The notes beneath the pieces are model-generated. The model was not told the origin of the DNA. It was given only the letters and a program-made list of their open reading frames with translations, and ran no database searches. Below, in pieces: positions 33,218 through 58,669 of a stretch of DNA of 64,000 nucleotides. Origin of the DNA: Flagellimonas maritima. GTDB lineage: Bacteria; Bacteroidota; Bacteroidia; Flavobacteriales; Flavobacteriaceae. The stretch is taken from assembly GCF_003269425.1 (NCBI RefSeq), contig NZ_CP030104.1, positions 620,001 through 684,000 of the forward strand. The letters are read 5' to 3'. The position numbers were made by a program, and so were the translations under genes. Numbering within the stretch: position 1 is the stretch's first letter; each line of letters starts with the position of its first letter.

Positions 33218-33235
33218 GATTCAATAGCATAAGGG

Positions 33236-36221: not shown

Positions 36222-36226
36222 AATTT

Positions 36227-36841: not shown

Positions 36842-36845
36842 GTGA

Positions 36846-37685: not shown

Positions 37686-38266
37686 TAGTAATTGGTTTCC
37701 CTGTTATTAATTTTATCCTGCATTTCACGAAAAGCAATAATTTCTCGATACCGTCTTGTCTTGGCTTCAATTTCCGCTACCATCTCCTTGGATTGCAATT
37801 CCATACCTTTTAACACTCCAGCACGTTCGGCATCAGTCATTTTTAAGTTATCACTTGAAAGTATCTGGTCTATATAGTCCAATCCTTCCAAAGAGTTTTC
37901 AATAATGGCATTGAAGGATTCTGAAACTCTATCAACTTCATCTGCTTTGATATAAGGCGAATTGAGAATTTCCCGTAAATCGTCCTGGACAATATCAAAT
38001 AGTTTTTGGTTGTTCCTCGCCATCTCGCGAACTGCCTTTAACTGCTTAATGACGTTATTGACCTTTTCAATATTCTCTTTTTGTTGCTTTAAAAACTGCA
38101 CGGTCTTTAATAACTCAGAAGTTTGTTTTGCAGATTCGATCAGGGATTTTGTAAAACTGATAAAGTTGGTATTGTCATATACCGGCATTCCTTGGCAGGC
38201 AACGCCTGCTGGCATTAGAAGGGCAAAGGTTAGGGCTATCCCTAAGAGTTTGAATTTGTGTTTCAT
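37685..38266 (-). CDS. traI: Conjugative transposon protein TraI (DUF4141)
   Basis: A 193-residue exported protein with a signal peptide (LLMPAGVACQG end) and a long alpha-helical coiled-coil body (LLKTVQFLKQQKENIEKVNN). This is the VirB5/TrbJ-like TraI of Bacteroidetes elements, not a relaxase despite the name. It overlaps TraG's stop by 4 bases. Confidence 0.8.
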   Translation of the reverse strand: MKHKFKLLGIALTFALLMPAGVACQGMPVYDNTNFISFTKSLIESAKQTSELLKTVQFLKQQKENIEKVNNVIKQLKAVREMARNNQKLFDIVQDDLREILNSPYIKADEVDRVSESFNAIIENSLEGLDYIDQILSSDNLKMTDAERAGVLKGMELQSKEMVAEIEAKTRRYREIIAFREMQDKINNRETNY

Positions 38267-40686
38267 GATTCTCGTTTTTTAGATTTATAATTGTTAATGA
38301 ATGTGTTTATGGCTTCTTTCATGTCATTTGTTTTTTCATAAATCCGCATTATGCGGTCACTTTCTTTGCCGTCTGTGAGGTATGCTGCAAAGACTTCTTT
38401 GGGTACTTCGAGACGAAAGATGTTGCTCTCCTTTCCAATCTTGATGAACATTTCGGTGTATATTCTATCGCCTGTGAGGTTGTTGCGAATGGACTTTAAC
38501 TGGTTTAAATCATGACTGGAAAGATTCAATCGCTTTTGAAGTTCATCGTAACCTTTTTCATTCCGCAAACTGTAGATGACCTGTGTGTTCTCCAGAATAC
38601 TCGCCGATGTGGAATTGTTGGGCAATTGATTGATGGATTGTAAAATGATACCAATAGCACCATTCTGTTTTCGGATAGCCTGATAGTAGAATTCTACACT
38701 CTCCAATACATTATCAAATTTGAGCTGTTTGGCAAACTCATCAAAAAGAATAATTCCTCTTTCGGAACGATTACGCCAAATTGTGCGTTGGATGGCTGAT
38801 TTGATGAGTTTCAGCATTACGGAAAGAATTTCCTTGTTGTCTTTCACTTCATCCAGTTCAAAAACAATCATTTGCTTATCCTCGATTTTATAGGTCTGGT
38901 CTTCGCTCACATTGAAGAGGAAACTGTACAATCCATCATCCACATATTCTGAAAGGATATGCAGGAAATTGTAAACGCTAAAATGCTCCTCTCGTATTTT
39001 AAGTTCTTCAATAAGGGAATCTTTTTTGTCATCTATAAATTGATACAAAGAAGCCAGTGAGTGATTTAATCGGACATGCTTATAATAATGTAGTAGTACT
39101 TTTTTAATGGCGACTTCCTTGGCCTTTGATACTTGGTTACCCTCTGCCAAAAGCTCTAACAAGAAAATGGCCAGGTCTTCCAACCGTTCAAGGGTTAAAT
39201 CCGCTTCATTGGAAATATAAAAGGGATTGATACCCAGGTTCTTTCCCTGCTTATAGCGTAAGATGATATGGTCGTTCGGATACAGCTTAGCGAATTTGGA
39301 ATACGAACCTCCCAAATCAATAATCACCAATCGGACTTGTTTCTCAAAATACTGCCGAAGTATGTTGTTTGCTAAAAAGGATTTGCCTTCTCCTGTTGGG
39401 GCGAAAATGGCAAAGTTTCGAGCCTTTATACGTTTCTTGCGTTCGTCCCAAACATCCTTTAAAACAGGAATATTGTATTGTCTATCATTAAAGATGATAC
39501 CCTGTTCATCCGATTTATAGTTGCTGTTATTGATATATAGACACAAGGCATGTTTTAAATCGGTTACGTATAAGTCCTCGTTGGAAAAATTGGAGCTGAA
39601 ACAACAATAGGAGTTAAGGAAGTAATGCTTCCGTTCTTCCCCTTTTGGATAATACGGTACGATGTCGAGCTCCTTAAATTCCGTTTTGATTTTTGATGCT
39701 ATTGTATTTAGCCGTCCGGCTTCCGGACACCAGAAAATAATGTTGAGATGCCCGCGTATAATTCTTGAACTGTCATCTTCATTAATTTTAGCAACAATGG
39801 CCTCAATCTTTTTTTGAATGAATTTGTTCTGTGTTCCGAAGTTGGAACTCTTGTTAAGCTCTTCAATTTTCTTGTCCAGTAGTTTTCTCCATTTGTGTTT
39901 GTCATCCAGATAAATAATTTGATTGATAGTATGGTTCTCGTTCAGGTTCAATCCTAATCCATCAATAAAGCCTTGATGGAAGACAAAATCATCTGAAGTG
40001 AATTTGTCATTGGTCTTACTGCTTTGTACCACATCCCCAAAACAGAGTTCGCTATTTACTGCCAGTACATCAAAATGGTTCTCACCAATTTCAATTGCTG
40101 ATTTCTTTAATTGAATATCGGTATCAAAACCTTCATTAAACCCATTGAAGTATGCATCGCATACATTTAGTATTTGATTCTCGTTTAATGGCTTCAGGGA
40201 CACTTTACGACTGTTATTGATAAAGGAAACTGCATCATTTACCGAAGCAATAAACTCCTGGACATTATGGTCCAGTTGCTTATGAATACCTTTTTCCACT
40301 CTGCGGAACGGATTGGTAAACTTGGAAGCGTTCAAAGCCTTATCCAATGGTAGCGTCAAGTACAAATAAGATTGATGCGTTAGGCACTCCCGCCCTTTAA
40401 AATGTCGATAGGTAGTCTTTTCCAGAAAGCTTTCATTTGGAATATACTTAGCATCAAAAGCGGTTTTCCTATAAATATCCTGTTTGTGGATGACAGTACC
40501 TGTTGGTAGGGATTTGAATGCTTGAAACCAAGAGCCGTGTATGTCTTCAAAATCGGTTGAGGATAGGGAATAGATTTCTGGCAGGTCTACTTCATAACAC
40601 AATACTACATTACCATTACTGGCGAAAACAATGTGTTGTTCTATGCTCAAAATGGGATGGTATGCCGATAGATTAATCTTTTTCAT
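38263..40686 (-). CDS. traG: Conjugation ATPase TraG (VirB4 type)
   Basis: An 807-residue ATPase that powers pilus/channel assembly. The Walker A motif is APTGEGKS (429-436) and Walker B is RGIILFDEFAK. The N-terminal 400 residues are the VirB4 N-domain. Note that in this nomenclature TraG is VirB4, not the coupling protein VirD4, which is absent here. Overlaps traF by 14 bases. Confidence 0.93.
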   Translation of the reverse strand: MKKINLSAYHPILSIEQHIVFASNGNVVLCYEVDLPEIYSLSSTDFEDIHGSWFQAFKSLPTGTVIHKQDIYRKTAFDAKYIPNESFLEKTTYRHFKGRECLTHQSYLYLTLPLDKALNASKFTNPFRRVEKGIHKQLDHNVQEFIASVNDAVSFINNSRKVSLKPLNENQILNVCDAYFNGFNEGFDTDIQLKKSAIEIGENHFDVLAVNSELCFGDVVQSSKTNDKFTSDDFVFHQGFIDGLGLNLNENHTINQIIYLDDKHKWRKLLDKKIEELNKSSNFGTQNKFIQKKIEAIVAKINEDDSSRIIRGHLNIIFWCPEAGRLNTIASKIKTEFKELDIVPYYPKGEERKHYFLNSYCCFSSNFSNEDLYVTDLKHALCLYINNSNYKSDEQGIIFNDRQYNIPVLKDVWDERKKRIKARNFAIFAPTGEGKSFLANNILRQYFEKQVRLVIIDLGGSYSKFAKLYPNDHIILRYKQGKNLGINPFYISNEADLTLERLEDLAIFLLELLAEGNQVSKAKEVAIKKVLLHYYKHVRLNHSLASLYQFIDDKKDSLIEELKIREEHFSVYNFLHILSEYVDDGLYSFLFNVSEDQTYKIEDKQMIVFELDEVKDNKEILSVMLKLIKSAIQRTIWRNRSERGIILFDEFAKQLKFDNVLESVEFYYQAIRKQNGAIGIILQSINQLPNNSTSASILENTQVIYSLRNEKGYDELQKRLNLSSHDLNQLKSIRNNLTGDRIYTEMFIKIGKESNIFRLEVPKEVFAAYLTDGKESDRIMRIYEKTNDMKEAINTFINNYKSKKRES

Positions 40687-40957: not shown

Positions 40958-40958
40958 A

Positions 40959-42210: not shown

Positions 42211-42248
42211 TAAACTCTTTACAAAAGGTGCAATTTGTAAAGAGTTTA
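42211..42248. repeat. Left cargo-boundary palindrome (core ACTCTTTACAAA)
   Basis: TAAACTCTTTACAAA is followed by an 8-base loop and the perfect 15-base reverse complement. A palindrome with the same core, ACTCTTTACAAAA, lies at 55944-55975 at the other side of the cargo. Confidence 0.75.
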
Positions 42249-43239: not shown

Positions 43240-44979
43240 ATGGCCAAAAAATCAAAAGAGTCGCTAGGATTTATTAACAGCCATACCCATGTCTTTACCA
43301 AAGACCATGTGCCCGAGCATTTGGCACGTCAATTTGTACCAGGACCAATTTATAAGTGGTTAAAGACTTCGAAAGTAATAAGCAAATTAAAAAAGTACTA
43401 CGAACCAACTGAGGATCATTACTCCTATACCCAAAGAAATAAACGATGGGATGCATATCAGAGTAAGATTAAAATTAAGCGAAACCCAATTTTAAGATAT
43501 AGTGTCTTATTTATTAAAATTTTGTCTTGGTTACTATTTGTTTATTACTTTTTTCAATTGGTTAAACCACTACTTTTCAAATCAATTGTCGGTAAAATTA
43601 TATATGGAATTATATTGTTTCCACTGGATTACATTTTACCCTTGATTGAAAGTTCATGGAACATATTCGTATTACTTTTTTTAATAGCTATTGCTTTCAA
43701 ATTTGTACGTAAGGGAATTTGGAAATTACTAAAAAGTAGATTCATAAAAATCATTGGTAGTGATAGGCTTGAATACCTACTTCGATTTGAAAATCTCTTA
43801 CGATATTCTGGATATGCTTCGCAAGGGGAGATTTTTAAAAAACTGAAACAACAATATCCTCCAAACACCCAATTTGTGGTTCTACCTATGGATATGGAAT
43901 TTATGGAAGCTGATAAAGTTCCAGAACCCTATATAAAACAAATGGATGATTTAATGATTTTAAAAAGTAATAATAAGGATGTTATTTTTCCTTTTGTTTT
44001 TGTTGACCCTAGACGAATTGAGAATCAAACTGATGAAGACCCATTCTTTAAGTATGATGCAACCAATCCTACTGAAATTAAACTAGAAAAATGCCATCTA
44101 AAAACATATCTAGATGGAGGAGCGTGCGGTATAAAAATTTATCCCGCTTTGGGTTATTATCCATTTGACAAAAATCTATTACCCTTGTGGCTATATTGTG
44201 CACAGAATGAAATACCAATAACTACCCACTGTTCCGTAGGCCCCATTTTTTATCGTGGAGAAAAAAAAGTGGAATGGGATAGACATCCCATTTTCGAAGA
44301 AGTAATCCAAAATGAAAAAGATAACCAACCCAAGAAAATCGAAAAATTACGATTGCAACAGATTAAGAACAAAGATTTTCAGGCAAATTTTACCCATCCA
44401 CTGAACTATACCTGTTTATTATTGCCGAAATATTTGAAAGGCCTTCTAGAACTGAAAGAATACAAACATCTTCAGTTTCTATTCGGCTATTCAAAAAACA
44501 AACTGGAACGTAATTTAAGCACGCTAAAAATAAATTTGGCTCACTATGGAGGTTCGGAAAATTGGGATGTCTTTTTGTCGAAAGACCGCGAACAAGAAGC
44601 AAATGAAATCTTAAACAAACCAAATACCGGATTGAATCTCGCAAGTGATCTTTTGAATTTGGCAAATCTTTACAGGCATTGGCATTATACGGATTGGTTT
44701 AGTTTAATCAGTTCAATGATGATTGAATTTGAAAATGTATATACTGATATAAGTTATACTACCCACGAAAACAAGTATTTAAATCTTCTCGCGGAAATAT
44801 TGGACCACCCTAAAGTTGAAAACAAAGTGTTATTTGGAACTGACTTTTATGTCGTTAGTAATCAAAAAACAGAAAAGCAGTACTGGATAGACATGAAAAA
44901 TATGATGGGTAGTAACAAATGGCATTCTTTATCCTACAAAAACCCAAAACGATTCTTATATCATAAAGTCTTTAAGTAA
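43240..44979 (+). CDS. Membrane-anchored amidohydrolase-family protein
   Basis: A 579-residue protein. The first metal motif is SHTHVF (HxH) at residues 14-19. About residues 85-165 then contain two to three membrane segments (FIKILSWLLFVYYFFQLVKP, then NIFVLLFLIAIAFKF). The amidohydrolase-2-like barrel resumes with CGIKIYPALGYYP, ITTHCSVGP, INLAHYGG and VLFGTDFYV, providing the later His and Asp. A membrane hairpin splitting the metal-binding barrel is unusual. No substrate can be assigned. Its 3' end overlaps the DUF2779 gene's end by 19 bases, tail to tail. Confidence 0.75.
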   Translation: MAKKSKESLGFINSHTHVFTKDHVPEHLARQFVPGPIYKWLKTSKVISKLKKYYEPTEDHYSYTQRNKRWDAYQSKIKIKRNPILRYSVLFIKILSWLLFVYYFFQLVKPLLFKSIVGKIIYGIILFPLDYILPLIESSWNIFVLLFLIAIAFKFVRKGIWKLLKSRFIKIIGSDRLEYLLRFENLLRYSGYASQGEIFKKLKQQYPPNTQFVVLPMDMEFMEADKVPEPYIKQMDDLMILKSNNKDVIFPFVFVDPRRIENQTDEDPFFKYDATNPTEIKLEKCHLKTYLDGGACGIKIYPALGYYPFDKNLLPLWLYCAQNEIPITTHCSVGPIFYRGEKKVEWDRHPIFEEVIQNEKDNQPKKIEKLRLQQIKNKDFQANFTHPLNYTCLLLPKYLKGLLELKEYKHLQFLFGYSKNKLERNLSTLKINLAHYGGSENWDVFLSKDREQEANEILNKPNTGLNLASDLLNLANLYRHWHYTDWFSLISSMMIEFENVYTDISYTTHENKYLNLLAEILDHPKVENKVLFGTDFYVVSNQKTEKQYWIDMKNMMGSNKWHSLSYKNPKRFLYHKVFK

Positions 44980-46427
44980 TTGAAAATTTTGACCATTGCC
45001 AATGTGTCAAGTTTACAGTATTCCAAAAGGTCTTGGCGTATTTGTTTTTTTTCTTCCTGGCCAATGGAGTCAAAAGCAATCTTTCCCCACGTATCCATAG
45101 CCATAGTACCATCTTGAACATTTAACTGGTTATAACTCAACTCGGGTACTAGAACGGGTAACACCTTTTTAATTGATGAAGACCCTTTAAAACGATAATC
45201 TACATAGTCTGAAATGAATACCTTTTCCAAATCAAACATATGGGTATTGATATAATTCAGATAAACTTCATGTTCTGGCAACCATTGAATCATTCTGTTA
45301 TTGGCCCCTATTTCATAGGAAGCATACCAGGATACAAATGTTCCTTCCATTCTAGTGAAAGCTTGCATTTGTTCCAACATTGATTTTGGAAATTCTAAAT
45401 TTTCGGCCAAATATTCAAAATGTGTTATAGAACCATCGGATTGCATAGTATGAATATTCACCTGAAAGGGCACTTGCTCAAAGGGTTTAAGGCCATCCAA
45501 TTTAGGTACAGCACTACCATAAGCCTCATAATCAAAGAAATGTAGGGGATAGCTTAAGTCGTCTAAAGTTTTTTGAATAGACTTCTTATCAATGATAGGT
45601 GCATTTTGAACAAAAGAATCATATTGCAGTTGTTGACCGGCAGATAACTCAAAGTCTTTCGGAATATCAATGAGACCAAAATTTCCCCTATCTACCAATT
45701 CATTAATTTTCTTTTCCGATAAACGTTTTAGTTCGTAAATGGAGGGTTGCGGCAAATCCTTATTAAAATATGTAAAGGTTTCGCAATGATTGGCCCTGGT
45801 TTTTCGCAAACATGAACAGTGATTTAAGTTGGGCATTTTATCCAAAAGCCCCACGGCCGTATGTATTTCATTAACAATACCTGAGTAAGCATTTTCTACC
45901 TTATCAGTCACATCTGTAACTGTCAGGAGGTCTTTGGCGGAGATTGCACCTTCCTTAATAAAATCTTCATATAAATGAATAATACTGCATTTAGAAACTG
46001 ATAACCCGTTTTGCTCCAATACGTACTTTTGAAAGCAAACATCATAAATGTGATTATGTGATGGCTTTTCACTAACCCTAACGGAAGATTTTACCTCATA
46101 TAGATGCCATGTTCTATCTTCCAATCTTTCCAGTACGTCAATTCTCGCAAAAACTTCCCTTTCGGTTACAAAAGCAGGTTGCATGAATAACTTACCCCCC
46201 TGCGCAATAACCTCCTTCGTTTCTCTTGGATCTGCAAAATTATCCAACACCATAGCGTTTGGGAACAATTCACCTACATAACTTTCTACCTCATACCCTT
46301 CTCTTATTAACTTTTGTAAAAAGATTGAAAATTCACCTTTAGGGTACTTTTCCGGCTCTTTTTTTGCCAACCAAAAACTTTCTGGGCACTGCAGGTAATG
46401 AATGAAGTCGGTTTTGGTGAGTTGCAT
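44961..46427 (-). CDS. Cas4-like nuclease fused to DUF2779 exonuclease-like domain
   Basis: A 488-residue protein, last in the defence operon. The N-terminal half has a PD-(D/E)xK core: Asp97 in RIDVLE, Glu111/Lys113 in YEVKSS, and Gln133. Cys14 (LQCPESFWL) and Cys204, Cys206, Cys215 (HCSCLRKTRANHC) match the four Fe-S ligands of Cas4/AddB nucleases. From about residue 290 is DUF2779: FFDYEAYG (Asp299/Glu301) and YCKLDTLAM (Asp474) look like a DEDD exonuclease. So it may cut and resect DNA. The biochemistry is inferred from motifs. Confidence 0.8.
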   Translation of the reverse strand: MQLTKTDFIHYLQCPESFWLAKKEPEKYPKGEFSIFLQKLIREGYEVESYVGELFPNAMVLDNFADPRETKEVIAQGGKLFMQPAFVTEREVFARIDVLERLEDRTWHLYEVKSSVRVSEKPSHNHIYDVCFQKYVLEQNGLSVSKCSIIHLYEDFIKEGAISAKDLLTVTDVTDKVENAYSGIVNEIHTAVGLLDKMPNLNHCSCLRKTRANHCETFTYFNKDLPQPSIYELKRLSEKKINELVDRGNFGLIDIPKDFELSAGQQLQYDSFVQNAPIIDKKSIQKTLDDLSYPLHFFDYEAYGSAVPKLDGLKPFEQVPFQVNIHTMQSDGSITHFEYLAENLEFPKSMLEQMQAFTRMEGTFVSWYASYEIGANNRMIQWLPEHEVYLNYINTHMFDLEKVFISDYVDYRFKGSSSIKKVLPVLVPELSYNQLNVQDGTMAMDTWGKIAFDSIGQEEKKQIRQDLLEYCKLDTLAMVKIFNYLKTL

Positions 46428-46429
46428 AT

Positions 46430-46840
46430 TTAATTTAAAACAGAAATAATATCATCATAAATTTTTGGGGTTTTCCCCCAAGTATAAAGACCATCTCTTA
46501 TCCATGATTCAGAATTTTCAATGTTTTCGGGAATCATATTTAGGGCATCATCATGGTAATAAATTTTAATCTTCTCGTTTTCGATAAAGGCAATATAGAT
46601 GTCTTTCCCTTTATATTTTAGATTTATTGTAAAGCGCCCTTTTAACTGAACCTTTATCATGTCTTCGCCAGAAATATGCACAGCTATAAAATCCGCACCC
46701 TGCCAATCATCGTTTAAGCGCAAAGAATTAAAGCCGTAATCCGCTAAGGTTGCTGAAACTTTGTGAAAATTATAGTTCTCACGTTGTCTTGAATTTAATG
46801 CCTTATAGGGTACTATGTTATACTTTTCTCTAAAGTTCAT
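46430..46840 (-). CDS. Small PD-(D/E)xK-like protein
   Basis: A 136-residue protein with a possible nuclease core: DWQGADFIAV (Asp) followed by IKVQLKGR (Gln-x-Lys in place of Glu-x-Lys). The rest is beta-rich. It overlaps the preceding gene by 4 bases (ATGA), so it belongs to the operon. The nuclease idea rests on a short motif only. Confidence 0.6.
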   Translation of the reverse strand: MNFREKYNIVPYKALNSRQRENYNFHKVSATLADYGFNSLRLNDDWQGADFIAVHISGEDMIKVQLKGRFTINLKYKGKDIYIAFIENEKIKIYYHDDALNMIPENIENSESWIRDGLYTWGKTPKIYDDIISVLN

Positions 46841-47448
46841 CTATTTTCCACTCTACTTTTTTCAAACCCGATTTGCCAATAATACATATCCACTATTTTC
46901 ATAATTGGGTATTGTGGATGAAGTTTTTGTATGTTCTTAAGTTCAAGTTGATTGGTCTCAACAAATGTGAAAAGGCTTTCTAAGCTTTTCTTTTTTAAAG
47001 TCTTGAATGAGTATTCTTTTTCCTTAACTCCATCTATGAAAAAGCGATCAAAAGCAGGCAAACAACCTAATGTTCCTAATATAATTTTACTGATAAGGGT
47101 ATCTGTAGGGGTAACATCATGAGTGGTTTTATAGTAGAACGAAAGATCTTGGATAAGATTAAGAATTCCTTCCAAGTTATGAAGAGCAATTTCTTGCTCT
47201 AGACCACAACGTAAATACTTATATTTTTCAATGATTTCAATAGCATCTTCATGTACTAAATAGTCTCTTTCCAGTAATTTGCTAGACCCTCTATACATAC
47301 CCCAACTGGCCAAGTAAAACCCTAGATGCAGGCTCAGTAATTTTTGATCGTCTATAGTATCAAAGGCTTTAAAACAATGATTCCAAGAATTATAGCGTTG
47401 AAATGGCTGATTATTAGTGACGATATAGTTATAAATTATTTTCTCCAA
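46837..47448 (-). CDS. Unrecognised operon protein
   Basis: A 203-residue alpha-helical protein starting at TTG, one base after the ptuB stop. The most conserved-looking stretch is LSLHLGFYLASWGMYRGSSK, a motif I have a vague memory of from proteins encoded near restriction systems. No catalytic motif recognised. Its close packing between ptuB and the PD-(D/E)xK-like gene argues that it is a working part of the system. Confidence 0.6.
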   Translation of the reverse strand: MEKIIYNYIVTNNQPFQRYNSWNHCFKAFDTIDDQKLLSLHLGFYLASWGMYRGSSKLLERDYLVHEDAIEIIEKYKYLRCGLEQEIALHNLEGILNLIQDLSFYYKTTHDVTPTDTLISKIILGTLGCLPAFDRFFIDGVKEKEYSFKTLKKKSLESLFTFVETNQLELKNIQKLHPQYPIMKIVDMYYWQIGFEKSRVENR

Positions 47449-47449
47449 A

Positions 47450-48355
47450 CTAAATTAGATTTTGCTTCCGTGCTCTAGGAAAGACATATTTACCTACCCA
47501 TGACTCTGTTAATGCAAGTTCATCTAAATAAACTTTTACCATTGCAGTATATGTGGAATTTAAAAGCTTTGGGTTTAATAAGTCTACTAGGTCCTGAAAA
47601 TAATCAGACAAGATATCTGAAATCACTTTCTTTGCAGCAAGATTTTGAGCATCAACTTGCTTAAACTTAAATATATTCTGGACTATTCTTTTTTTTAATT
47701 TATCCAATTCTTTAAGTTTTTGTTTTCTGCTTTCTAACAGTAAAACATCTTCATTTAAATGATAAACAATTATGGATATTCTTGCTCTTGAATATTCAAC
47801 TGGATAGTTGCGCTCATCATATTTGGGAATAGCTTCCCCAGTTGCAACATCAAAACCAAGTAATTTGACGTCATTGGAAACCGTTGGATCTAAAAGAACA
47901 TAATCTTCGGTAGAATGATTTATTGTTGGATTTGTTGCAACTAAACTACCAATAGACAGAGGGAAATAGTTTCCCTTATGGGAATTTAAAATATCGCAAC
48001 ATAATCGATAATTACGCCAGTTATATGTTAGCCACCAATATCCAACATTCCAATTTCGAGTTTGTTCATTATATTTCCAAGTTCCTTTGAGTTTTTTGAC
48101 CTTTTTTTTAGGTCTAAAATGCTCAATATGAAATGAAGATATCGCATTATTGGCTTCTGTGAACCAACATTTATTATGCGAAAATTTCATCAAATATCTT
48201 TTTGTTGGCTTCCAAACACTTGTTCCATTTGATTTGATATATTCCTTTATTTCTTGCAAAGATGATTTGGCCCTTATTCTGCGTGTGTGCACACGACTCG
48301 CCTTCTTCTTCCAAGAATTTGGAAGATGTAGATTGTTCAATTCGATATGCCTCAT
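47450..48355 (-). CDS. ptuB: HNH nuclease, Septu PtuB-like
   Basis: A 301-residue protein. The HNH core is HIEHFRPK (His76, Glu78, His79) and CCDILNSHKGNYFPL (Asn124, His126), in the order seen in TIGR02646/PtuB nucleases. The usual two CxxC zinc pairs are incomplete: CWFTE has only Cys63, and CCDILN keeps Cys119/Cys120 but lacks the later Cys. Its ATG overlaps the ptuA stop by 4 bases. It is predicted to be the effector nuclease activated by PtuA. Confidence 0.78.
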   Translation of the reverse strand: MRHIELNNLHLPNSWKKKASRVHTRRIRAKSSLQEIKEYIKSNGTSVWKPTKRYLMKFSHNKCWFTEANNAISSFHIEHFRPKKKVKKLKGTWKYNEQTRNWNVGYWWLTYNWRNYRLCCDILNSHKGNYFPLSIGSLVATNPTINHSTEDYVLLDPTVSNDVKLLGFDVATGEAIPKYDERNYPVEYSRARISIIVYHLNEDVLLLESRKQKLKELDKLKKRIVQNIFKFKQVDAQNLAAKKVISDILSDYFQDLVDLLNPKLLNSTYTAMVKVYLDELALTESWVGKYVFPRARKQNLI

Positions 48356-50097
48356 AAATCTAAGTCATTTGAAAGTTCCTCAAATAGGTTATCTGCATTC
48401 TCCTTTCTCAATTTTTTTTCATCTTCCGACAACTCCCTTTTTATATATAATTCCTTGTTGTTTAGTCGTCTATAAAACTCTTTAAAAAATGGATCTACAA
48501 AAGGATCGGCATAATCAATATTCCTTAATATGTTAGTCAATTCTTTTAATCTATTTTTTTCTTCATCGTTAAGATTGTCAATTTTCAATAGTAATTCCCG
48601 CCGTTCATATATTAGTTTGCTGGTTCCCTGATCGACGGTATTCTGAAAACCGAATAAGTCTGTTTTTAATATTGCATCAACACCTTTACCCTTTAAATCT
48701 TCTTCTGCAAAAGACCATCTAGGCACCTCTTCAGGCAAATTGACACGTTTTTGAAATAAAATTACTTGCTCCTTATTAAGACCAGATATAAAAATGGGGT
48801 CATGTGTAGTCATTAGAATATGACTATCTTTTTGTTTTTGAATATCGTTTATGTTGCTTATGTATTCGTATTTCCATTTTGGATTTAAATGAGTTTCAGG
48901 CTCGTCAAAAAGACAAAGCACATCAATTTCATCAATAAGATTTACAAGGCTGAATATTGTCAAGGCCTGATGCTCTCCGTCCGAAATTGATTCATACGGT
49001 ATTGGTGATTCTACCCCATCCATTTTGAGCATGATATTATCTAGAATAAACAATTGCTCATCGTTTGGCACATGGCCGATATCATTTTGAGCACTGTAAA
49101 CGTTTTTATTATACAATACCTTTTGCCTTCTTTCCCACGGGATAGTATAACTATTTCTGAGCATTAACTTCTCAAAATATTTATATAATCCACCTGCATC
49201 AGCAGCCATTCTTCCAAAGACCTCAAAATTTTCCACACTTCTTAAATCTATATTTATAGATATTTCATCAGTTCTTCGTTCTGTTGAAACATCAAAATGA
49301 TCTTTTAAAGTTTTAATGAAATTTTGAACGGCCTTGTCAATAGGCATTTTAAACTTGTTACGATATTGAAAGCGAATAGTTATTCTAAAAGACTCTATTG
49401 ATTCAATACCAAATTTATCCTTGAAAATTTTGAGTTTGTTTATTTTGTCTTGATCAGTTTCATTGGGATTGCCATATATCAAGAAATTAGATAAAACTAA
49501 TGCACTTGTAGTGTCATAATCAACAAAATGAAGACGATTATCCCCTATGATTTCGCCTACATTTTTTTTAATGTTTATAGCGGCTTGCTCCAAATAAAAC
49601 AAATCCATTCTTCTGAAAGGAAGGCTCAGTGATTCATTTTCTCCAGAGGAGTAGCCCCATATACGTTTTGGTAGAGCATAGCTTCGGGATTCTCCAGTTA
49701 TTTCTATTTCCTCTAAATCATTTATTAGAAAGTAATTTGGTTGTTGCCTTTGATTTTTAATAATTTTTATATGGTAATGTTGCCCTGAAATAATTGGATT
49801 ATCATTGAAAACTTGCATAATTCCTCCTGCTGCCATAAAGGGCTTATAGTATTCAATTTCAAAAGATTCTATTGGTACTTGAAAATTACTAACTGTGGTA
49901 TATTCAAATAAATGACATTCCAAATAATAAAATATATCTGCAATAGCCTCTAGTAGATTTGACTTCCCACTTCCATTTGGACCTACGAAACAAAGTGGGT
50001 CAATAGTGTTTGACTGTAAATTTGGCCGAAAGGTTATTTCAAACCCTGCTTGCAGGCTCTTATATGGAACGTTTATTTTAAGCCGTTTAAGTTTCAT
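48352..50097 (-). CDS. ptuA: AAA/ABC-type ATPase, Septu PtuA-like
   Basis: A 581-residue ATPase. Walker A is GPNGSGKS (39-46), the ABC-like signature ISDGEHQ (371-377), Walker B CLFDEPETHLNP (395-406) and the switch His TTHDP (430-434). The architecture fits the restriction-system-associated AAA ATPase (TIGR04435/PtuA) that acts with an HNH nuclease in Septu and retron effectors. It overlaps hsdS upstream and ptuB downstream by 4 bases each, so it is translationally embedded in the restriction operon. Confidence 0.85.
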   Translation of the reverse strand: MKLKRLKINVPYKSLQAGFEITFRPNLQSNTIDPLCFVGPNGSGKSNLLEAIADIFYYLECHLFEYTTVSNFQVPIESFEIEYYKPFMAAGGIMQVFNDNPIISGQHYHIKIIKNQRQQPNYFLINDLEEIEITGESRSYALPKRIWGYSSGENESLSLPFRRMDLFYLEQAAINIKKNVGEIIGDNRLHFVDYDTTSALVLSNFLIYGNPNETDQDKINKLKIFKDKFGIESIESFRITIRFQYRNKFKMPIDKAVQNFIKTLKDHFDVSTERRTDEISINIDLRSVENFEVFGRMAADAGGLYKYFEKLMLRNSYTIPWERRQKVLYNKNVYSAQNDIGHVPNDEQLFILDNIMLKMDGVESPIPYESISDGEHQALTIFSLVNLIDEIDVLCLFDEPETHLNPKWKYEYISNINDIQKQKDSHILMTTHDPIFISGLNKEQVILFQKRVNLPEEVPRWSFAEEDLKGKGVDAILKTDLFGFQNTVDQGTSKLIYERRELLLKIDNLNDEEKNRLKELTNILRNIDYADPFVDPFFKEFYRRLNNKELYIKRELSEDEKKLRKENADNLFEELSNDLDL

Positions 50098-51323
50098 TTT
50101 TTGAACTCTTCTCTTAATGCGACCTTACTCAAATCTAATTCTCCTTTAAAAACATCTTGGCTTAGGCGACCATATAGGTATTCCAATTCTAATAGATTAT
50201 TGTGATAGAGCTTATTTGTTTCGATTATTTTTAAAACAACTGAAGAAAATTTTTCTTGCAAACTTAGGGGTGGTTGAGGTAATTTGAGTTCCTTTATTAT
50301 AGTCAAATTTAGCCCACTCATTATTGCACCTTTTACTCTTTTTGAAAGCTGTTTAAGAATCAAAGGGTGATATTGAAAGGAATATTTTAAATAGAATGGA
50401 AGTATTTTTTTTTGATTCAAGGTAATAGCTGCTAAATGCTTTGAGTTGATAGCTAGTGGTATATTTTGGGGTACTACCGCTGATCTACCGTTGGTTGCCA
50501 TAATACTTATCAATACGTCACCAGGGTGAACTGTATAACGTTTCAATTCTTCATATTTTTTAAATGTTATGTATCGTGGTTTTCCTTCCTCATAGAAGTT
50601 GTTGACTACATTGTCAATACCTAATACTTTAACATCTCCGGATTCAGAAAACTCTTCATGAAGCAAACTGCTTCCAAATGGTCCAGAGCGCATACTTGCC
50701 TTCCTTTTTAAAGCGTAACCTTCAATGGTATCTCTTTCCCAGTTCTGGTAATCTAAGTTTTTTTTCCAAAACATATCCAAAAAAGTACTTTTTAAAAGCT
50801 CGTCTAAAAGCGCAATACTTTCCTTACGTTTGGCAATGAGCTCTTCACAATCGGTAAGGACTTGGGCAATTCGTTTTTGGTTTTCCAAAGAGGGTAAAAA
50901 AACATCAAAACGAGACAAGTCGCTTTTGCTAAAGCCTGCCTGGGCTGCCCTACCGCCTACATTCAAAATATAATTTTGAAATGAAGGACTTACAAGTAAA
51001 TGTCGTAAATATGGTTTTAAAAGTTTTTTCTGATCGGGAATGGTCTTCATTATGGCTACATTATAAGCCCCAGCAAGTCCAGTTAAAATTTTACCAACAG
51101 AAGCCCCATATCTACCAATAAGAATATCCTCGCTCTTACAAGTTTTGATTCTGTTAGTTATTCTTACATATTCGATATTTTCTTTATTGGGCTGCGTAAA
51201 ATCCCTAATCTGAAGCATTCTGACATAACCATCCTTTAACGTTTTCGTCCATTCGCTTTTGGGTGGCTGGGAACCGCCTTGAAAGTCGCAGACATCGGTA
51301 AGTCTGTATTTTTTTACTTCCAT
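50094..51323 (-). CDS. hsdS: Type I restriction specificity subunit HsdS
   Basis: About 409 residues. I use the ATG at 51323, which shares one base with the hsdM stop (TGATG); a TTG precedes it. Two target-recognition domains are visible, each followed by a coiled coil: the first ends LPSLENQKRIAQVLTDCEEL, the second LKLPQPPLSLQEKFSSVVLK. It sets the DNA sequence for both methylation and cleavage. Confidence 0.93.
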   Translation of the reverse strand: MEVKKYRLTDVCDFQGGSQPPKSEWTKTLKDGYVRMLQIRDFTQPNKENIEYVRITNRIKTCKSEDILIGRYGASVGKILTGLAGAYNVAIMKTIPDQKKLLKPYLRHLLVSPSFQNYILNVGGRAAQAGFSKSDLSRFDVFLPSLENQKRIAQVLTDCEELIAKRKESIALLDELLKSTFLDMFWKKNLDYQNWERDTIEGYALKRKASMRSGPFGSSLLHEEFSESGDVKVLGIDNVVNNFYEEGKPRYITFKKYEELKRYTVHPGDVLISIMATNGRSAVVPQNIPLAINSKHLAAITLNQKKILPFYLKYSFQYHPLILKQLSKRVKGAIMSGLNLTIIKELKLPQPPLSLQEKFSSVVLKIIETNKLYHNNLLELEYLYGRLSQDVFKGELDLSKVALREEFKK

Positions 51324-52924
51324 CAAAACAATTCCTTTAATTCCTTTAACTTCTCTGAAATTTCCTTTTCCAATCCCTTTATTTCATCTCCATTTTCATC
51401 TTTACCTCCCAATAATTTTAAAAGAATCTTCTCAGGTTTTTCATATTCGATTTCTTCATATACCTCTTCTTTATAACGGGAAAAACTCAGGTCATAGCCT
51501 TCTGCGACAATCTCCTTTTTAGGTACGGTAAAATGGTTACGTTTTCTATCATTTTCAGAGTCAGGCTTCTTACTTTTAAACTTGATGACAATATCCTGTA
51601 AATCTCCAAACCCCTCTAATTTAGCCCGTTTGTCATCCAGACTATACCCATCGCTCTGCATGTCATAAAACCAAACATTTTCGGTTTCTCCACCTTTAGT
51701 AAAAATAAGTAAGGCCGTACTAACTCCGGCATAGGGTTTAAACACTCCGCTTGGGGCCGTTATTACCGCTTTTAACTCACTTTTTTCTATCATCAATTTA
51801 CGAGCTTCCTTGAAGGCTTTTCCGCTACCAAAAAGGACCCCTTGGGGTACAACTATACCGGCCGTGCCACCCATGCGAAGCATTTGATAAATACGTTCAA
51901 TGAAAAGCAGTTCGGTTTTGGTCGTGCCCAACTGTAGGCTTTCATTAATATCCCCCTTATCTATATTGCCTGTAAAAGGCGGGTTCGCGAGTACTATATC
52001 ATATTGACTACTTTCATTGTAGCTTTTGCTTAGCGTATCGGTATAATCTATTTGAGGGGTATCAATACCATGCATCATTAAGTTCATCAACCCTAACCGC
52101 ACCATAGTCTGGTCTATATCATACCCCTGTAGACTTTGGTTTAAAATAGCCTTGGTCTTTTCATCAAACCGTGAAGCCTTGCTGGAGCGTATAAATCCAT
52201 CTTCGTCCTTCTCTCGGTTTTTATTATCCTTATCCAACTGGGTCACTAAATATTGGTAAGCATCCAATAAAAAACCTCCGGTACCACAGGCTGGGTCTGC
52301 TATCCTATTCCCTAATTTTGGGGCCACCAGTTCTACCAGTAATTTTATGATGTGGCGTGGGGTTCTGAATTGTCCGTTTTTGCCCGCGCTGGCTATTTCG
52401 CTTAACAAGTATTCATAAACATCCCCTTGAATATCCTGGAAATCCTGCCCTTTCTCAGAGGCATCTCTTTCCATTTCTTCATATATGCTATCGATAATTT
52501 TTACGGCCTCCACCAACAGCGAAGGTTTGGGAATGATAAAGACCGCATTACGCATATGTTTTACAAAGGGAGAATCATCAGTATCCCAGGTCTTGATAAA
52601 TGGAAACACATATTGTTGTACCCGTTGCAGCATTTCTTCACCGGGTAATCGCTTAAACTCGCTCCATCGTAATTGTTGCTTTTCAATTTTTAAATCGCTG
52701 TTTGGTAATTGAAACTCTCCTTCAAAACGAGAGGTAAATGGGTCATTGGTAAACTCAGCCCTTGCTTGGGCATCGGTATCATTTGTATCCAGTTTTTTCA
52801 TAAAAAGCAGATAAGTAATCTGCTCAATGGCCGTTAATGGGTTAGAGATGCCACCACTCCAGAATTTGTTCCAGAGTTCTTGAATTTTGGATTTTATTTC
52901 AGGGTTACTTTGTAATAAGCTCAT
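51323..52924 (-). CDS. hsdM: Type I modification methyltransferase HsdM
   Basis: A 533-residue N6-adenine methyltransferase. HsdM_N lies in about residues 1-150; the SAM loop is ADPACGTGGF (209-218) and the catalytic motif is NPPF (314-317). It starts 0 bases after hsdR's end. It protects host DNA and would also mark it. Confidence 0.95.
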   Translation of the reverse strand: MSLLQSNPEIKSKIQELWNKFWSGGISNPLTAIEQITYLLFMKKLDTNDTDAQARAEFTNDPFTSRFEGEFQLPNSDLKIEKQQLRWSEFKRLPGEEMLQRVQQYVFPFIKTWDTDDSPFVKHMRNAVFIIPKPSLLVEAVKIIDSIYEEMERDASEKGQDFQDIQGDVYEYLLSEIASAGKNGQFRTPRHIIKLLVELVAPKLGNRIADPACGTGGFLLDAYQYLVTQLDKDNKNREKDEDGFIRSSKASRFDEKTKAILNQSLQGYDIDQTMVRLGLMNLMMHGIDTPQIDYTDTLSKSYNESSQYDIVLANPPFTGNIDKGDINESLQLGTTKTELLFIERIYQMLRMGGTAGIVVPQGVLFGSGKAFKEARKLMIEKSELKAVITAPSGVFKPYAGVSTALLIFTKGGETENVWFYDMQSDGYSLDDKRAKLEGFGDLQDIVIKFKSKKPDSENDRKRNHFTVPKKEIVAEGYDLSFSRYKEEVYEEIEYEKPEKILLKLLGGKDENGDEIKGLEKEISEKLKELKELF

Positions 52925-55702
52925 TTATGCTACCAGTTGTTCTGTTAATGTTACTATCTCTTTTATTTCTTGAGGGTTAAATACCCCTTGTATTCCTTTA
53001 GGGTGAATTACCGTGAAAGGTGCTTCCAATAAATTGCGTTTGTGTATTTGGCCACGCTCAATGATATAATCCCGCAAAAGGTTTAAAAATTCAATTTGTC
53101 TTGTGCTAAGCGTTGTATGCTCTTGAATAAAAGCGGCCACTTTTTTGCTTACGGCGGCATCAAAACTTTCCAATATTTCGATGCCCAATATATGCTTTAT
53201 AAATTGCAGGAAACTGGCGCGCTGGTTTTTATAGACTTTTTGTAACAAGGCCTCGGTAATATGTGGATCTTCTAGATGCAGTTCTTCGGCTAGTTGGTCT
53301 GCTTCTTCCGGAGAGACATCGGCACCATTTTTTATTTTTTGGAGAATGGGGTTTCGCTCTAGCATTTCGGCAACCTTTTGTTCCACCATCTCGCGATAGC
53401 GTGTAATACTGACCGATTCGTGTTGCGGGCCGAATTCTACAAACTCTTTGGTGGTTACGATATCCTTTAGATTCAACTGATCCATTCCGTTCCCCACAGG
53501 GCGGCGATCGATATAGCGCATCAAGGGCGCCAGTTTTTCGGATAGTATATCAAATTCGGTATCGTTGACTATCGCCCAATACTTGTTTGACAAAACTTGA
53601 TTGATATAGGAGGTATGTTTAGCTACGGTATTTACGGATTGCGGCAGCATTGACACCTGTTCCTGAATGTTTTCCTTTAGAATTTCCAACCGTTCAGCAT
53701 TATCTTCCAAATGCACCAAAGAGGTTTCCAAAACATCTTTTTCAAAACGCATCGCCTTAAAATCGACTTGTGAAACCGTTCTGAACAAGGGCAAGATGAT
53801 TTCGCGTAAAAACTCAAAACTTTTAGCATCCAACCCTTCCCAAAATTCGGCTTTCCTGGCCTTGAACAAAGCAGATTGCGCATCTTGGATTGCAACCGAA
53901 TCTTGAGGCAATTTTTTTAGCTGTCTTCTGAATAGTTCAATTTCTTTGAATGCAATGTCAATTTCATCAAGCTCTAGCGCAAGTTCTATTTTATCTATGC
54001 GCAGACTTGCAAAGCGAACCGGTAAAGGTACTTGTGGTTTATTCTCCACCCCTTTCAAGCTTAGTTTAAAGTATTCGAAGTTATCCCAGCAGTCAATAAT
54101 TCGAAAAACGTCTTTCTCAACGCACCAAGGTTTCATAGCGGTAGGTTCTAACAAACGCGTACCACGCCCGATCATTTGCCAAAACTTAGTATACGAAAAC
54201 ACAGGTTTTGCAAAGACCAAATTGACGAGTTCGCGAATATCGATACCTGTATCGAGCATATCCACACTTATCGCCACTCTGGGCATGTTGTTCAGTTTGA
54301 ATTGATCCAACAACCCACCTTTGCCATACACCCGAGGGTCATCGGAAACCAAAACTTTAGACAGCTCTCCGTTGTACTCCGGATAGAGTTTGTCGAAAAT
54401 TTCTTCAACTTGTCTTGCTTGTTGAATGGATTGGCAGAAAAAGATACTTTTACCTGGAAGCACGCCGTATGGGTCTTTTATGGATTCTTCCATAAACTCG
54501 CGAACGATCAACGCATTCGTTCCCCGGTTCCGTACGGATTTTTCGAGTTGGTCACCTTCGTAGTTGATTTCTTCAATATCACGGCCTTCATACAATAACT
54601 TCTTTTGGTCTTCAAGCGAGACAGTTCTTTTGCTGATGCCTTCATCTTGAAATTTCGTATGGATTTTCATCACCTCAAAATTGCATAGATAAGGCGGAAT
54701 ATTGTTTACCGCCTCTTCATACGAATACGCAAAGGTCGGCAGGCCATCTTCGCATTCAAATAGTTGAAAAGTATTGTGGTCGATAACATCGGTCGGAGTC
54801 GCTGTGAGTCCTAATGTAATCGTATTAAAATAATTTAAAACCTCTTGGTAGGTGTTGTAAATGGAACGATGGCTTTCGTCAATTACGATTAAATCGAAAA
54901 AATGAGGAGACAAGGTATTCTCTTGATCTTTTACGATATTGAGCATTGTAGGGTAGGTAGATACGTAAATACGCCTATCAGTAGCAATTGACTTTTCCCC
55001 TCTTTTAGGCCAAGTAGGTTCGTTTGGCAAGTGGTCTTTGAAAGCATCTAAAGCCTGGTCACGTAATGCAATTCTATCTACCAAAAACAATACACGTTCT
55101 GCCCAGCTTGCACGCATTAAAGCATCTGTCAATGCTATACAAGTCCTAGTTTTTCCTGTACCTGTGGCCATCACCAAAAGAAACTTTGTGCGTTTCCTTT
55201 CAATGGCTTCCATCACTGCACGAATAGCTTGTATCTGGTAATCCCTTCCTGCTATAGCTGTATTGATTAATTCGGCAGCAAGTGGTTTTCGTCTTTTTCT
55301 AATGAAGGCGTATCGTTCCAAGTCATCACGGGTAGGAAAACCAATAATTTTTTTAGGAGGATAATTATTCAGGTCCCAAAAAAAAATATCCAGTCCGTTG
55401 GTATAAAAGCAAAAGGGAAATAATCCTGTTTCTTCTTTAATACCTAAACAATATTGTTTTGCCTGTTCCCTTCCAATTTCAGCATCTTTGGAAGTTTTCT
55501 TTGCCTCCACAACGGCAAGGGCCTTGCCGTCTTTACCCAAAAGAACATAATCACTAAACGTATTATTATAATCTGGCGAAGGTTCTTTTGCTTTCGAAAT
55601 CACCGAATATTCTTCAACAACCTGAGTATAGTCATTGACATTCCATCCTGCTGTCTTGAGGTGGTTATCAATTAATTCTATACGTGTTTGTTTTTCGTTC
55701 AA
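52925..55702 (-). CDS. hsdR: Type I restriction endonuclease subunit HsdR
   Basis: A 925-residue translocase-nuclease of the EcoEI/EcoR124 kind. The nuclease motif is Asp51...Glu66-x-Lys68 (VVEAKK) with Gln80 in REQAKQY. Helicase motifs: MATGTGKT (178-185) and DESH (275-278). It is the first gene of the eight-gene operon. The gene is full length with no frameshift that I can see. Confidence 0.94.
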   Translation of the reverse strand: MNEKQTRIELIDNHLKTAGWNVNDYTQVVEEYSVISKAKEPSPDYNNTFSDYVLLGKDGKALAVVEAKKTSKDAEIGREQAKQYCLGIKEETGLFPFCFYTNGLDIFFWDLNNYPPKKIIGFPTRDDLERYAFIRKRRKPLAAELINTAIAGRDYQIQAIRAVMEAIERKRTKFLLVMATGTGKTRTCIALTDALMRASWAERVLFLVDRIALRDQALDAFKDHLPNEPTWPKRGEKSIATDRRIYVSTYPTMLNIVKDQENTLSPHFFDLIVIDESHRSIYNTYQEVLNYFNTITLGLTATPTDVIDHNTFQLFECEDGLPTFAYSYEEAVNNIPPYLCNFEVMKIHTKFQDEGISKRTVSLEDQKKLLYEGRDIEEINYEGDQLEKSVRNRGTNALIVREFMEESIKDPYGVLPGKSIFFCQSIQQARQVEEIFDKLYPEYNGELSKVLVSDDPRVYGKGGLLDQFKLNNMPRVAISVDMLDTGIDIRELVNLVFAKPVFSYTKFWQMIGRGTRLLEPTAMKPWCVEKDVFRIIDCWDNFEYFKLSLKGVENKPQVPLPVRFASLRIDKIELALELDEIDIAFKEIELFRRQLKKLPQDSVAIQDAQSALFKARKAEFWEGLDAKSFEFLREIILPLFRTVSQVDFKAMRFEKDVLETSLVHLEDNAERLEILKENIQEQVSMLPQSVNTVAKHTSYINQVLSNKYWAIVNDTEFDILSEKLAPLMRYIDRRPVGNGMDQLNLKDIVTTKEFVEFGPQHESVSITRYREMVEQKVAEMLERNPILQKIKNGADVSPEEADQLAEELHLEDPHITEALLQKVYKNQRASFLQFIKHILGIEILESFDAAVSKKVAAFIQEHTTLSTRQIEFLNLLRDYIIERGQIHKRNLLEAPFTVIHPKGIQGVFNPQEIKEIVTLTEQLVA

Positions 55703-56071
55703 GAAAGTCTTTGGTTGGTGCTCTTGTAAAAATAGGACTACTTTTTAGATATACAAAGCAGTAAGATATGATGACCTCTTATATAATTCATAAGTTATTT
55801 TATTGATATTATTTATCGAGGATAATCCTTTCCCTTCTCATGGAAATTTATAGTCTCTCTTTGAGAACTCTTTACATTACGCCTTTTAGTCATAGTATTA
55901 GAATTAGGGTTAAACTCTCTAAACTATAATCAAAAAAAGAAGCACTCTTTACAAAATCCGCTTTTTGTAAAGAGTATAAACCTTTCCATCGGTTTAAAGA
56001 ACAGTTCCATAAATTAAGCTTTAATGAGAATGAGATTTATCAATGGTAAGAACTATCCTATTTTTGATAAT
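55703..56071. other. Gap at right cargo boundary
   Basis: About 370 bases between the start of hsdR and the DnaC-like gene's end. It carries a half-site AACTCTTTACA at 55866-55876 and the palindrome at 55944-55975. The hsdR promoter must lie here but I could not define boxes. Confidence 0.6.
55944..55975. repeat. Right cargo-boundary palindrome (core ACTCTTTACAAAA)
   Basis: ACTCTTTACAAAA, a 6-base loop, and TTTTGTAAAGAGT form a perfect 13-base inverted repeat. It shares its arms with the palindrome at 42211-42248. Confidence 0.75.
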
Positions 56072-57261: not shown

Positions 57262-57269
57262 ACCAATAG

Positions 57270-57548: not shown

Positions 57549-57566
57549 TTTCTTTGCTTTAAAAAC

Positions 57567-57829: not shown

Positions 57830-58669
57830 TCATTCATCCAAGGATTCCATACGTCTGTTCAGCATTTCGATCAACTTATCCAGAAAGCGGGTCTTACTGG
57901 TCTTCCTTGACCGTATATCGATAAAGGTATGGTAGTAATTGCCAAGGTCAATGTTGTAAAAATGCTCAAAATGGGAGGCCAGTCCCTTGATATCAACCGT
58001 TCCACTGTTGATGGAATTACTGGCGTGGAGGGCATATAATAGTTCTATCAGATCGGTCTTGCTTCCGGTCCAGAATAATTTTGATGGTTTTTCCATAGCT
58101 ATGTTTTTTGGGGGTTCCAGAGTATTGTTAAGGTCATCCACTTCCTTTCTAAGGTACACGATCAGCATATCGTAGGCCATAATGGTGGCCACCGTCCCAT
58201 CCTGACAGGTCGAAAATTGGTCATCGATCAGAAAATGGAACGATTCCAAGGGAAGCCTCAAGTCACGGTTCCCCCGGACAAAATATTGTTCATCCAATGA
58301 CATGGCGCCACGACGGTAATAATTGTAAAATTCGAGATTATCGTTAAAGAAGGTCTGGAACTTATCGATTTGGTGCTGAAGATATTTGATCTGGGCAGCA
58401 TTGTTCCCCCTGGGACGTTTGCTCTCAATATTGAACAGTTTGACATAATAGATAAGCTTGCTGAAGATCTGAGGCTTGACATGTTTGAAGAAGTAAATCT
58501 CATCTGCTTGGGCGGCAAAGGTTTTGCCCGTAATTTCCTTTTGCAGTTTTCGGATGCTTTTCTCAACCAGCACAATTCCCTTTTCTGCCTTGAAAAGAAC
58601 ATCACCGCCCCCACTTTCCAACGCATCCAATTGACCCTCAAATTCCGATAGCAGCTTTTGATATTTCAT
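57830..58669 (-). CDS. rteC: RteC-type element regulator
   Basis: A 279-residue protein of the RteC family, which regulates excision and mobilisation in Bacteroides conjugative transposons. Landmark blocks: IYFFKHVKPQIFSKLIYYVK, FFNDNLEFYNYYRRGAMSLD and YFVRGNRD. The C-terminal half contains a likely winged helix (FWTGSKTDLIELLYALHAS). It ends 12 bases from the next gene's start region on the same strand. Confidence 0.88.
   Translation of the reverse strand: MKYQKLLSEFEGQLDALESGGGDVLFKAEKGIVLVEKSIRKLQKEITGKTFAAQADEIYFFKHVKPQIFSKLIYYVKLFNIESKRPRGNNAAQIKYLQHQIDKFQTFFNDNLEFYNYYRRGAMSLDEQYFVRGNRDLRLPLESFHFLIDDQFSTCQDGTVATIMAYDMLIVYLRKEVDDLNNTLEPPKNIAMEKPSKLFWTGSKTDLIELLYALHASNSINSGTVDIKGLASHFEHFYNIDLGNYYHTFIDIRSRKTSKTRFLDKLIEMLNRRMESLDE

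Follow-up and report, generated by a model that had tools for sequence, protein, structure and literature searches.

Do eight genes that follow one another on one strand, from a type I restriction enzyme to a Cas4-like nuclease, make up a single defence machine or a set of exchangeable parts? The question is raised by an operon of Flagellimonas maritima that lies on the minus strand at 44961-55702 of the stretch analysed here (contig NZ_CP030104.1, positions 620,001-684,000, forward strand; 64,000 nt), which we call the window and within which all coordinates are given. The window is part of a 3.77-Mb genome assembled as a single contig. The first-pass annotation had taken the operon for a possible composite of a type I restriction system, a Septu-like pair and three further genes. 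The reading that we favour, and consider fairly probable together with the mechanism proposed for it below, is that of a modular type I restriction locus among conjugative-element genes, made of a core and an exchangeable tail, and not that of a single eight-part machine.

The operon itself was borne out: the eight reading frames are uninterrupted at the coordinates predicted for them and run head to tail in the order hsdR-hsdM-hsdS-PtuA-like ATPase-PtuB-like-orf203-orf136-Cas4-like/DUF2779, with a ninth gene converging on the last of them.

52925..55702, minus strand: hsdR, type I restriction subunit, 925 aa (PF04851, PF08463 EcoEI_R_C, PF04313; PADLOC REase_I, 538 bits)
51323..52924, minus strand: hsdM, N6-adenine methylase subunit, 533 aa (PF02384, PF12161; PADLOC MTase_I, 559 bits; NPPF string)
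50094..51323, minus strand: hsdS, specificity subunit, 409 aa from ATG (PF01420, two Methylase_S stretches)
48352..50097, minus strand: PtuA-like AAA/ABC ATPase, 581 aa (PF13304, AAA_21/AAA_15, 51.2 bits; PADLOC PtuA1, 254.4 bits)
47450..48355, minus strand: PtuB-like protein, 301 aa, called an HNH nuclease after its family (PADLOC PtuB1, 189.5 bits)
46837..47448, minus strand: orf203, all-helical protein whose family has no Pfam entry (33-member alignment, structure model)
46430..46840, minus strand: orf136, small PD-(D/E)xK-like protein (10-member alignment; invariant E21, D50, Q65 and K67)
44961..46427, minus strand: 488-aa protein that joins a Cas4-like part to a DUF2779/RNase H-like exonuclease domain (PF11074, 97.2 bits, cut-off 23.3)
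43240..44979, plus strand: amidohydrolase-like protein of 579 aa, encoded convergently (PF04909, 26.3 bits against a cut-off of 26.4)

The packing is as close as had been described. The hsdR and hsdM genes abut with 0 bases between them, and hsdM and hsdS overlap by 1 base (TGATG) when the ATG at 51323 is taken as the hsdS start, as was done here, in place of the TTG at 51326 of the open reading frame list. Overlaps of 4 bases join hsdS to the ATPase gene (ATGA), the ATPase gene to the PtuB-like gene, and orf203 to orf136, while gaps of 1 base (before the TTG start of orf203) and 2 bases (between orf136 and DUF2779) account for the rest. Five of the seven junctions thus overlap or abut; the earlier figure of six is reached when the 1-base gap is included.

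Pfam matches above cut-off confirmed the identity of hsdR, hsdM, hsdS, the ATPase and the DUF2779 protein. The name of the PtuB-like protein stands on its PADLOC match and on sub-threshold NCBIfam matches, among them 29.6 of 52.15 bits to TIGR02646, 'putative HNH endonuclease'; the HNH domain itself found no match in Pfam at E 0.1. No profile of Pfam, PADLOC or NCBIfam exceeded its cut-off for orf203 or orf136. The translations contain the strings 'VVEAKK', 'MATGTGKT' and 'IVIDESH' (HsdR), 'ANPPF' (HsdM), 'GPNGSGKSN' and 'LFDEPETH' (ATPase), 'IEHFRPK' (PtuB-like protein) and, in the DUF2779 protein, 'YEVKSS' with several cysteines in the Cas4-like part and 'FFDYEA' and 'YCKLDT' in the RNase H-like part, all of which we take to be motifs expected in working enzymes. 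No signs of decay were seen in the eight translations, and the type I restriction-modification (RM) gene set is complete, as the nuclease and motor domains of HsdR, the N6-methylase HsdM and an HsdS with two target-recognition stretches are encoded by adjacent genes.

The joining of the type I genes to a Septu-like pair recurs in other genomes. The ATPase scored 279.1 bits against TIGR04435, 'restriction system-associated AAA family ATPase', which has a cut-off of 300 bits. A profile search of 299 genomes of the same family placed eight of them over this cut-off, with the window (275.8 bits in this search) and genome G250 (253 bits) just under it. Besides the window, nine core loci from nine genomes were fetched, namely the eight over the cut-off, including that of Maribacter sedimenticola (G075), and that of G250. 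In all nine, hsdM, hsdS, the ATPase gene and a partner gene are contiguous; hsdR was recognised nearby in seven, in two of which one small gene stands between hsdR and hsdM. The partner in all nine, Maribacter included, matches the Maribacter type best and not the window type, two of them weakly (E about 1e-10). Relatives of the PtuB-like protein of the window occur in 14 of the 299 genomes, and all besides the protein itself were found at E 3e-22 or weaker; the loci of the two closest (G049 and G211) both have the order S-PtuA-PtuB-(x)-M. ATPase-partner pairs are thus repeatedly coupled to type I systems, and the restriction and Septu-like core is a real recurrent unit consisting of hsdM-hsdS, usually hsdR, and an ATPase and its partner directly after. 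Such coupling is already implied by the NCBI family name of TIGR04435, and no paper describing it was seen among the matches listed for open-licence literature.

These loci also bear on the view of the operon as a passive defence island, in which unrelated defence genes have inserted behind one promoter because insertions into the hsd operon are tolerated, and no functional link exists even between Hsd and the ATPase-partner pair. In favour of such islands, the hsd loci of Campylobacter jejuni are described as carrying inserted 'restriction linked orfs' (PMC2610378), and the inserted gene of the Maribacter counterpart described below and the standalone copies of orf203 and DUF2779 would suit them as well. 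However, the pair follows directly after hsdS in nine of nine core loci and a second pair type adjoins hsdS in two more, and this constant place counts against a passive island because random insertion would not choose one place. We regard this view as doubtful.

The whole eight-gene order was found in one other genus. In M. sedimenticola (loci L008, L052 and L053) it reads hsdR-hsdM-hsdS-ATPase-partner-orf203-orf136-UDG-DUF2779 followed by the convergent amidohydrolase, so that one gene, encoding a uracil-DNA-glycosylase (UDG), is inserted between orf136 and DUF2779. Global protein identity between the window and Maribacter is 87.1% for R, 88.9% for M, 39.8% for S, 33.1% for the ATPase and 19.0% for the partner, and in the tail it amounts to 55.4% for orf203, 77.9% for orf136 and 78.0% for DUF2779. 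At the DNA level the two loci match between 55699 and 51407, then within hsdS over two short segments only, and again from 47415 onwards. The ATPase-partner pair and the greater part of HsdS have therefore been exchanged, with R, M and the tail kept. An exchange between otherwise matching loci suggests that specificity and effector are swapped as the enzyme engine and the helpers stay. The partner in Maribacter has a zinc-type HNH look by eye, but it was left without a match by Pfam. The amidohydrolase (48% identity) occupies the same convergent place beside DUF2779 in L008, and beyond it and the operon no gene of the window, conjugation genes included, matches this 20.6-kb locus at 1e-8.

Relatives of orf203 were found in three of the 299 family genomes, those of the window and of Maribacter included. 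The third, an Algibacter (G017, L029), carries a different HsdR, then an orf203 interrupted by a stop, then orf136. The amidohydrolase-like protein, for which membrane stretches are predicted by eye, occurs in 18 of the 299 genomes, and in one of them (G240, L186) its gene lies beside PtuB-like, patatin-like (by eye) and DUF2779 genes.

The last gene of the operon was traced through further genomes. Its product matches PF13482 at 22.1 bits (cut-off 22.0) in addition to PF11074, and the Cas4 cut-offs were not reached (PF01930, 22.6 of 22.7 bits; TIGR00372, 24.3 of 65 bits). PF11074 is present in 40 of the 299 family genomes (45 match rows), and a second DUF2779 protein is encoded in the genome of the window at 3187608. 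Besides the window and Maribacter, 22 DUF2779 loci of 13-20 kb each were fetched from the same family. Twenty hand-chosen neighbours of DUF2779 and ten of orf203 were scanned with Pfam, which confirmed the restriction genes; for the neighbours in L122, L124, L130, L132, L136, L141 and L142 the assessment relies solely on inspection by eye and on blastp against a fixed set of queries. When a tight run is defined by gaps of at most 51 bases, ten of the 22 loci have a restriction gene in the same run as DUF2779, and several restriction types are represented:

L123: N6_N4 methylase and ResIII helicase
L125: Eco57I/TaqI_C methylase, the second gene away from DUF2779
L126 and, as the second gene away, L135: McrBC
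L127: N6_N4 methylase with a large unscanned neighbour
L128 (second gene away), L129 and L137: GmrSD
L131: type ISP
L139: HsdR

Three more loci have other defence-like neighbours, namely an OLD-TOPRIM ATPase (L133), a patatin with weak PtuA/PtuB relatives beyond it (L140) and AbiEii (L143), and no restriction or defence neighbour was recognised in the remaining nine (L122, L124, L130, L132, L134, L136, L138, L141 and the fragment L142). The combination of hsd with ptuAB was found in none of the 22 (blastp at 1e-5 over 13-20 kb). DUF2779 has been assigned to a 3'-5' exonuclease clade with a PD-(D/E)XK-like domain, and the protein described here has the domain pair reported for such DUF2779/COG2251-type nucleases, a Cas4-like part and an RNase H-like exonuclease (PMC3985635); it differs in its place at the tail of a restriction operon. 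Titles and abstract openings of the open-licence papers that name DUF2779 mention no defence role for it.

The first gene of the tail, orf203, has a 33-member alignment and a structure model of high confidence (pLDDT 94.2, pTM 0.92). When this model was compared with known structures in a second look (VIA-align), DNA glycosylases filled the first 20 rows, all with weak scores. The predicted fold weakly resembles HhH-GPD DNA glycosylases, and sequence support is lacking, as PF00730 matched none of the 33 members at E 0.01 and hhalign of orf203 with Nth (8 sequences) and MutY (2) gave a probability of about 0.2% or less, with glycosylase profiles that are narrow because only ten of 30 HhH-GPD loci (8 Nth, 2 MutY) had a frame that passed the motif filter. 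K121 and D134 are invariant in the alignment. Nothing significant was found for orf203 in the viral fold library, PADLOC returned two stray single-member matches over its members, and a search of PDB sequences with orf203 and orf136 gave weak or repetitive matches only (a mucus-binding protein, designed proteins and nanobodies).

Among the 41 orf203 loci, an hsdM-type gene lies within the flanks (up to 10 kb) in nine, two of which have an interrupted orf203 (L029 and L036), and genes for a UDG, an OLD-TOPRIM ATPase or a methylase-helicase lie near orf203 in one or two loci each. Four Bacillales relatives (L034, L037, L038 and L039) carry about 110 extra C-terminal residues, mutually similar and of unassigned type, and three of these four loci contain type I hsd genes. 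In a gammaproteobacterial metagenome-assembled genome the gene for Mfd, the transcription-repair coupling factor, shares its end with part of the frame predicted for an orf203 relative (L014:6432-10624). A UDG-family gene (PF03167) directly follows orf136 or orf203 in two Bacteroidota loci (L008:11062-11757 and L005:2169-2870).

In the small protein orf136, E21, D50, Q65 and K67 are invariant in ten of ten relatives, a pattern which we take to be that of PD-(D/E)xK enzymes; its structure model was built on 3 sequences and is unusable (pLDDT 41.6). Of 395 genomes taken from the phylum, three carry the gene, that of the window being one of them; it also occurs on five plasmids, and none was confirmed in viral contigs. 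The orf203 of the window was not found in the plasmid collection by tblastn, though the same collection holds the five orf136 relatives. Taken together, orf203 and orf136 have relatives in other phyla and on plasmids that are not accompanied by the core. The two genes adjoin each other in the window, in Maribacter (L008) and in Algibacter (L029), where orf203 is interrupted. As a fixed pair they were rejected, for orf136 is present in only two of the 41 orf203 loci (L008 and L029) and stands without orf203 in L188 and L189. On two Paracoccus plasmids (L047:2263-8648 and L051:3267-9630) an orf136 relative lies in the order DNA methyltransferase-orf136 relative-DEAD/DEAH helicase-GIY-YIG nuclease with ends overlapping or near-abutting, which is possibly a further restriction-like system.

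With the tail genes placed, the proposal of the first-pass annotation, a single composite system that takes in the last three genes, can be weighed. In its strict form it describes an obligate defence system of eight components, or nine with the amidohydrolase, all of whose products act in one pathway. The window and Maribacter agree in order, close packing and the convergent amidohydrolase, and R and M as well as orf136 and DUF2779 are well conserved between them, as such a system would predict. Against this, each tail gene occurs without the core; eight of the nine core loci lack both orf203 and orf136, Maribacter being the only one to have either; and none of the 22 DUF2779 loci has hsd-ptuAB within its 13-20 kb. 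The tail, moreover, cannot depend on one specific pair because the pair is replaced between the two genomes. The obligate eight-gene system was rejected as improbable, and of the original claim the coupling of restriction to the Septu-like pair is supported and the composite with the last three genes is not. Because each occurs without the core, which is the test that the annotation had itself named, orf203, orf136 and DUF2779 are better read as mobile add-ons that are often found with other restriction systems.

For the modular locus the following mechanism is proposed. HsdRMS would methylate the host and cut unmodified DNA. The ATPase and its putative HNH-type partner would be made in step with HsdS through the overlapping stop and start codons and would form a latent second-line effector that fires once the restriction complex has been inactivated or overwhelmed, in the manner of PrrC in its own hsd operon; unlike PrrC, the effector would have a separate nuclease, acting on DNA or tRNA. 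In the tail, orf203 with its glycosylase-like fold may recognise or excise non-canonical bases, orf136 may nick, and the DUF2779 protein, with its Cas4-like part and 3'-5' exonuclease-type domain, may degrade ends created by restriction enzymes of any type, which would explain its presence beside several types. The tail genes are thus read as probable helpers in degrading or attacking modified DNA.

The control of the pair by the restriction complex is inferred on the model of PrrC, which is described as kept silent by its linked type I RM system until a phage anti-restriction factor activates it (PMC2610378); a recent study cloned PrrC together with HsdR, HsdS and HsdM (PMC11555353). PrrC of EcoprrI and the pair described here have in common an ABC-type ATPase effector inside a type I restriction operon and a proposed role as latent second line of defence. 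PrrC carries an anticodon-nuclease domain, whereas the Pfam scan of the ATPase found none and the nuclease would be a separate protein. With Septu the locus shares the ATPase and PtuB-like protein themselves, as a PtuA-type ATPase adjoins a PtuB-type protein with strong PADLOC PtuA1 and PtuB1 matches. Septu stands alone or with a reverse transcriptase, but here the pair is no self-contained two-gene system and lies directly behind hsdS and before orf203, with junctions that overlap or leave 1 base. It is also far below the cut-offs of the retron Ec78-type PtuAB models (NF041760, 27.1 of 500 bits; NF041761, 47.3 of 150 bits), and the ATPase matches the solved retron Ec78 PtuA only weakly (E 1e-4 over about 55 residues). 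The MADS models stayed under their cut-offs too (MAD2, 126.7 of 720 bits; MAD3, 26.7 of 420; MAD5, 42 of 400). One Septu PtuAB is reported to cleave tRNA-Tyr (PMC13096335), and across PtuAB pairs the accounts name tRNA-Tyr cleavage in two studied systems and DNA degradation in another (PMC11555353, PMC13096335).

The ATPases of TIGR04435 are homologous and occupy the same place after hsdS; the ATPase of the window differs in scoring below the cut-off of that family and in having a partner only 19% identical (global) to the Maribacter-type one. The rlo genes of Campylobacter hsd loci, such as rloC, are likewise extra genes inside type I operons, but RloC is described as a tRNase with a Rad50-like ATPase part (PMC2610378), and the tail proteins match no such model. 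For orf203 the nearest precedents are the Brig1 and Brig3 DNA glycosylase defences and the base-excision restriction enzyme R.PabI, which share with it the idea of base excision as an attack on phages; the likeness of orf203 to HhH-GPD enzymes, in comparison, is one of fold only, and weak. Base excision as defence has been described (PMC11078745, PMC10273834, PMC13160076), in no case with an HhH-GPD-like fold in the portions of these reports available to us.

A bolder version of the modular locus, which we offer as a tentative possibility, is that DUF2779 and orf203, the latter as a divergent HhH-GPD-type glycosylase, are promiscuous restriction add-ons that attach to the ends of operons of all kinds, be they type I, II, III, ISP or modification-dependent. 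They would extend the reach of these systems to base-modified or partly resistant phage DNA, orf203 making or sensing abasic sites and DUF2779 destroying the ends that result, while in this locus an exchangeable PtuAB-like effector would guard the type I enzyme. If this is true, a few portable helper genes are common to restriction systems of different types; this predicts which hypothetical genes beside restriction operons merit testing and gives DUF2779 a testable job, and orf203 may represent a new family of defence-associated glycosylase-fold proteins. The add-ons shared across systems are of greater interest to us than the eight-gene block itself.

The surroundings of the operon are those of a conjugative element of the Bacteroidota kind, or the remains of one, whose genes flank the cargo on both sides (28261-41246 and 56072-58669):

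28261-28657: tmRNA gene
28897..30111, plus strand: tyrosine integrase, separated from the tmRNA gene by about 240 bases (PF00589, PF13102, PF17293)
35292..36221, minus strand: conjugative-transposon TraM (PF12508, 131 bits)
38263..40686, minus strand: TraG conjugation ATPase (PF19044, 207 bits)
57830..58669, minus strand: RteC protein (PF09357, 279 bits)

Genes for a DNA polymerase III alpha chain and a DinB-type polymerase are also present in the surrounding stretch. That the tail genes serve this element, in maintenance or in DNA repair after transfer, and not phage defence is very improbable, for although the cargo lies among integrase, TraG, TraM, RteC and polymerase genes, orf136 is found on five plasmids and one orf203 relative overlaps the Mfd repair gene, the 20.6-kb Maribacter locus has no match at 1e-8 to the conjugation genes of the window and DUF2779 accompanies restriction genes of several types. 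An attachment-site repeat or far end of the element was not found, as a 76-base query from the tmRNA end matched only itself in the genome and 14-mers around that end have no more than three overlapping, chance-like copies in the window.

The amidohydrolase gene and the whole operon are bracketed by a palindrome, a 12-base inverted repeat around an 8-base spacer, of which the genome contains exactly two copies, with different spacers:

42214..42245: left copy of the 12-8-12 palindrome, one of two exact genome copies
55944..55975: right copy of the 12-8-12 palindrome, one of two exact genome copies

None of such palindromes are expected in shuffled window sequence, and none was found in viral contigs. 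Among 45 genomes of the genus, that of the window counted, two others have a single copy. In one of these it lies 31 bases upstream of a gene for a 202-aa tyrosine recombinase, which has only a distant relative in the genome of the window (best 35% identity); in the other no recombinase adjoins it by eye. No empty site was found, because the palindromes of these two genomes have different surroundings. The 12-8-12 geometry resembles that of tyrosine-recombinase core sites, but on the minus strand a T-run follows the right copy, as in a terminator; the flanking palindromes are possible recombinase core sites or terminators.

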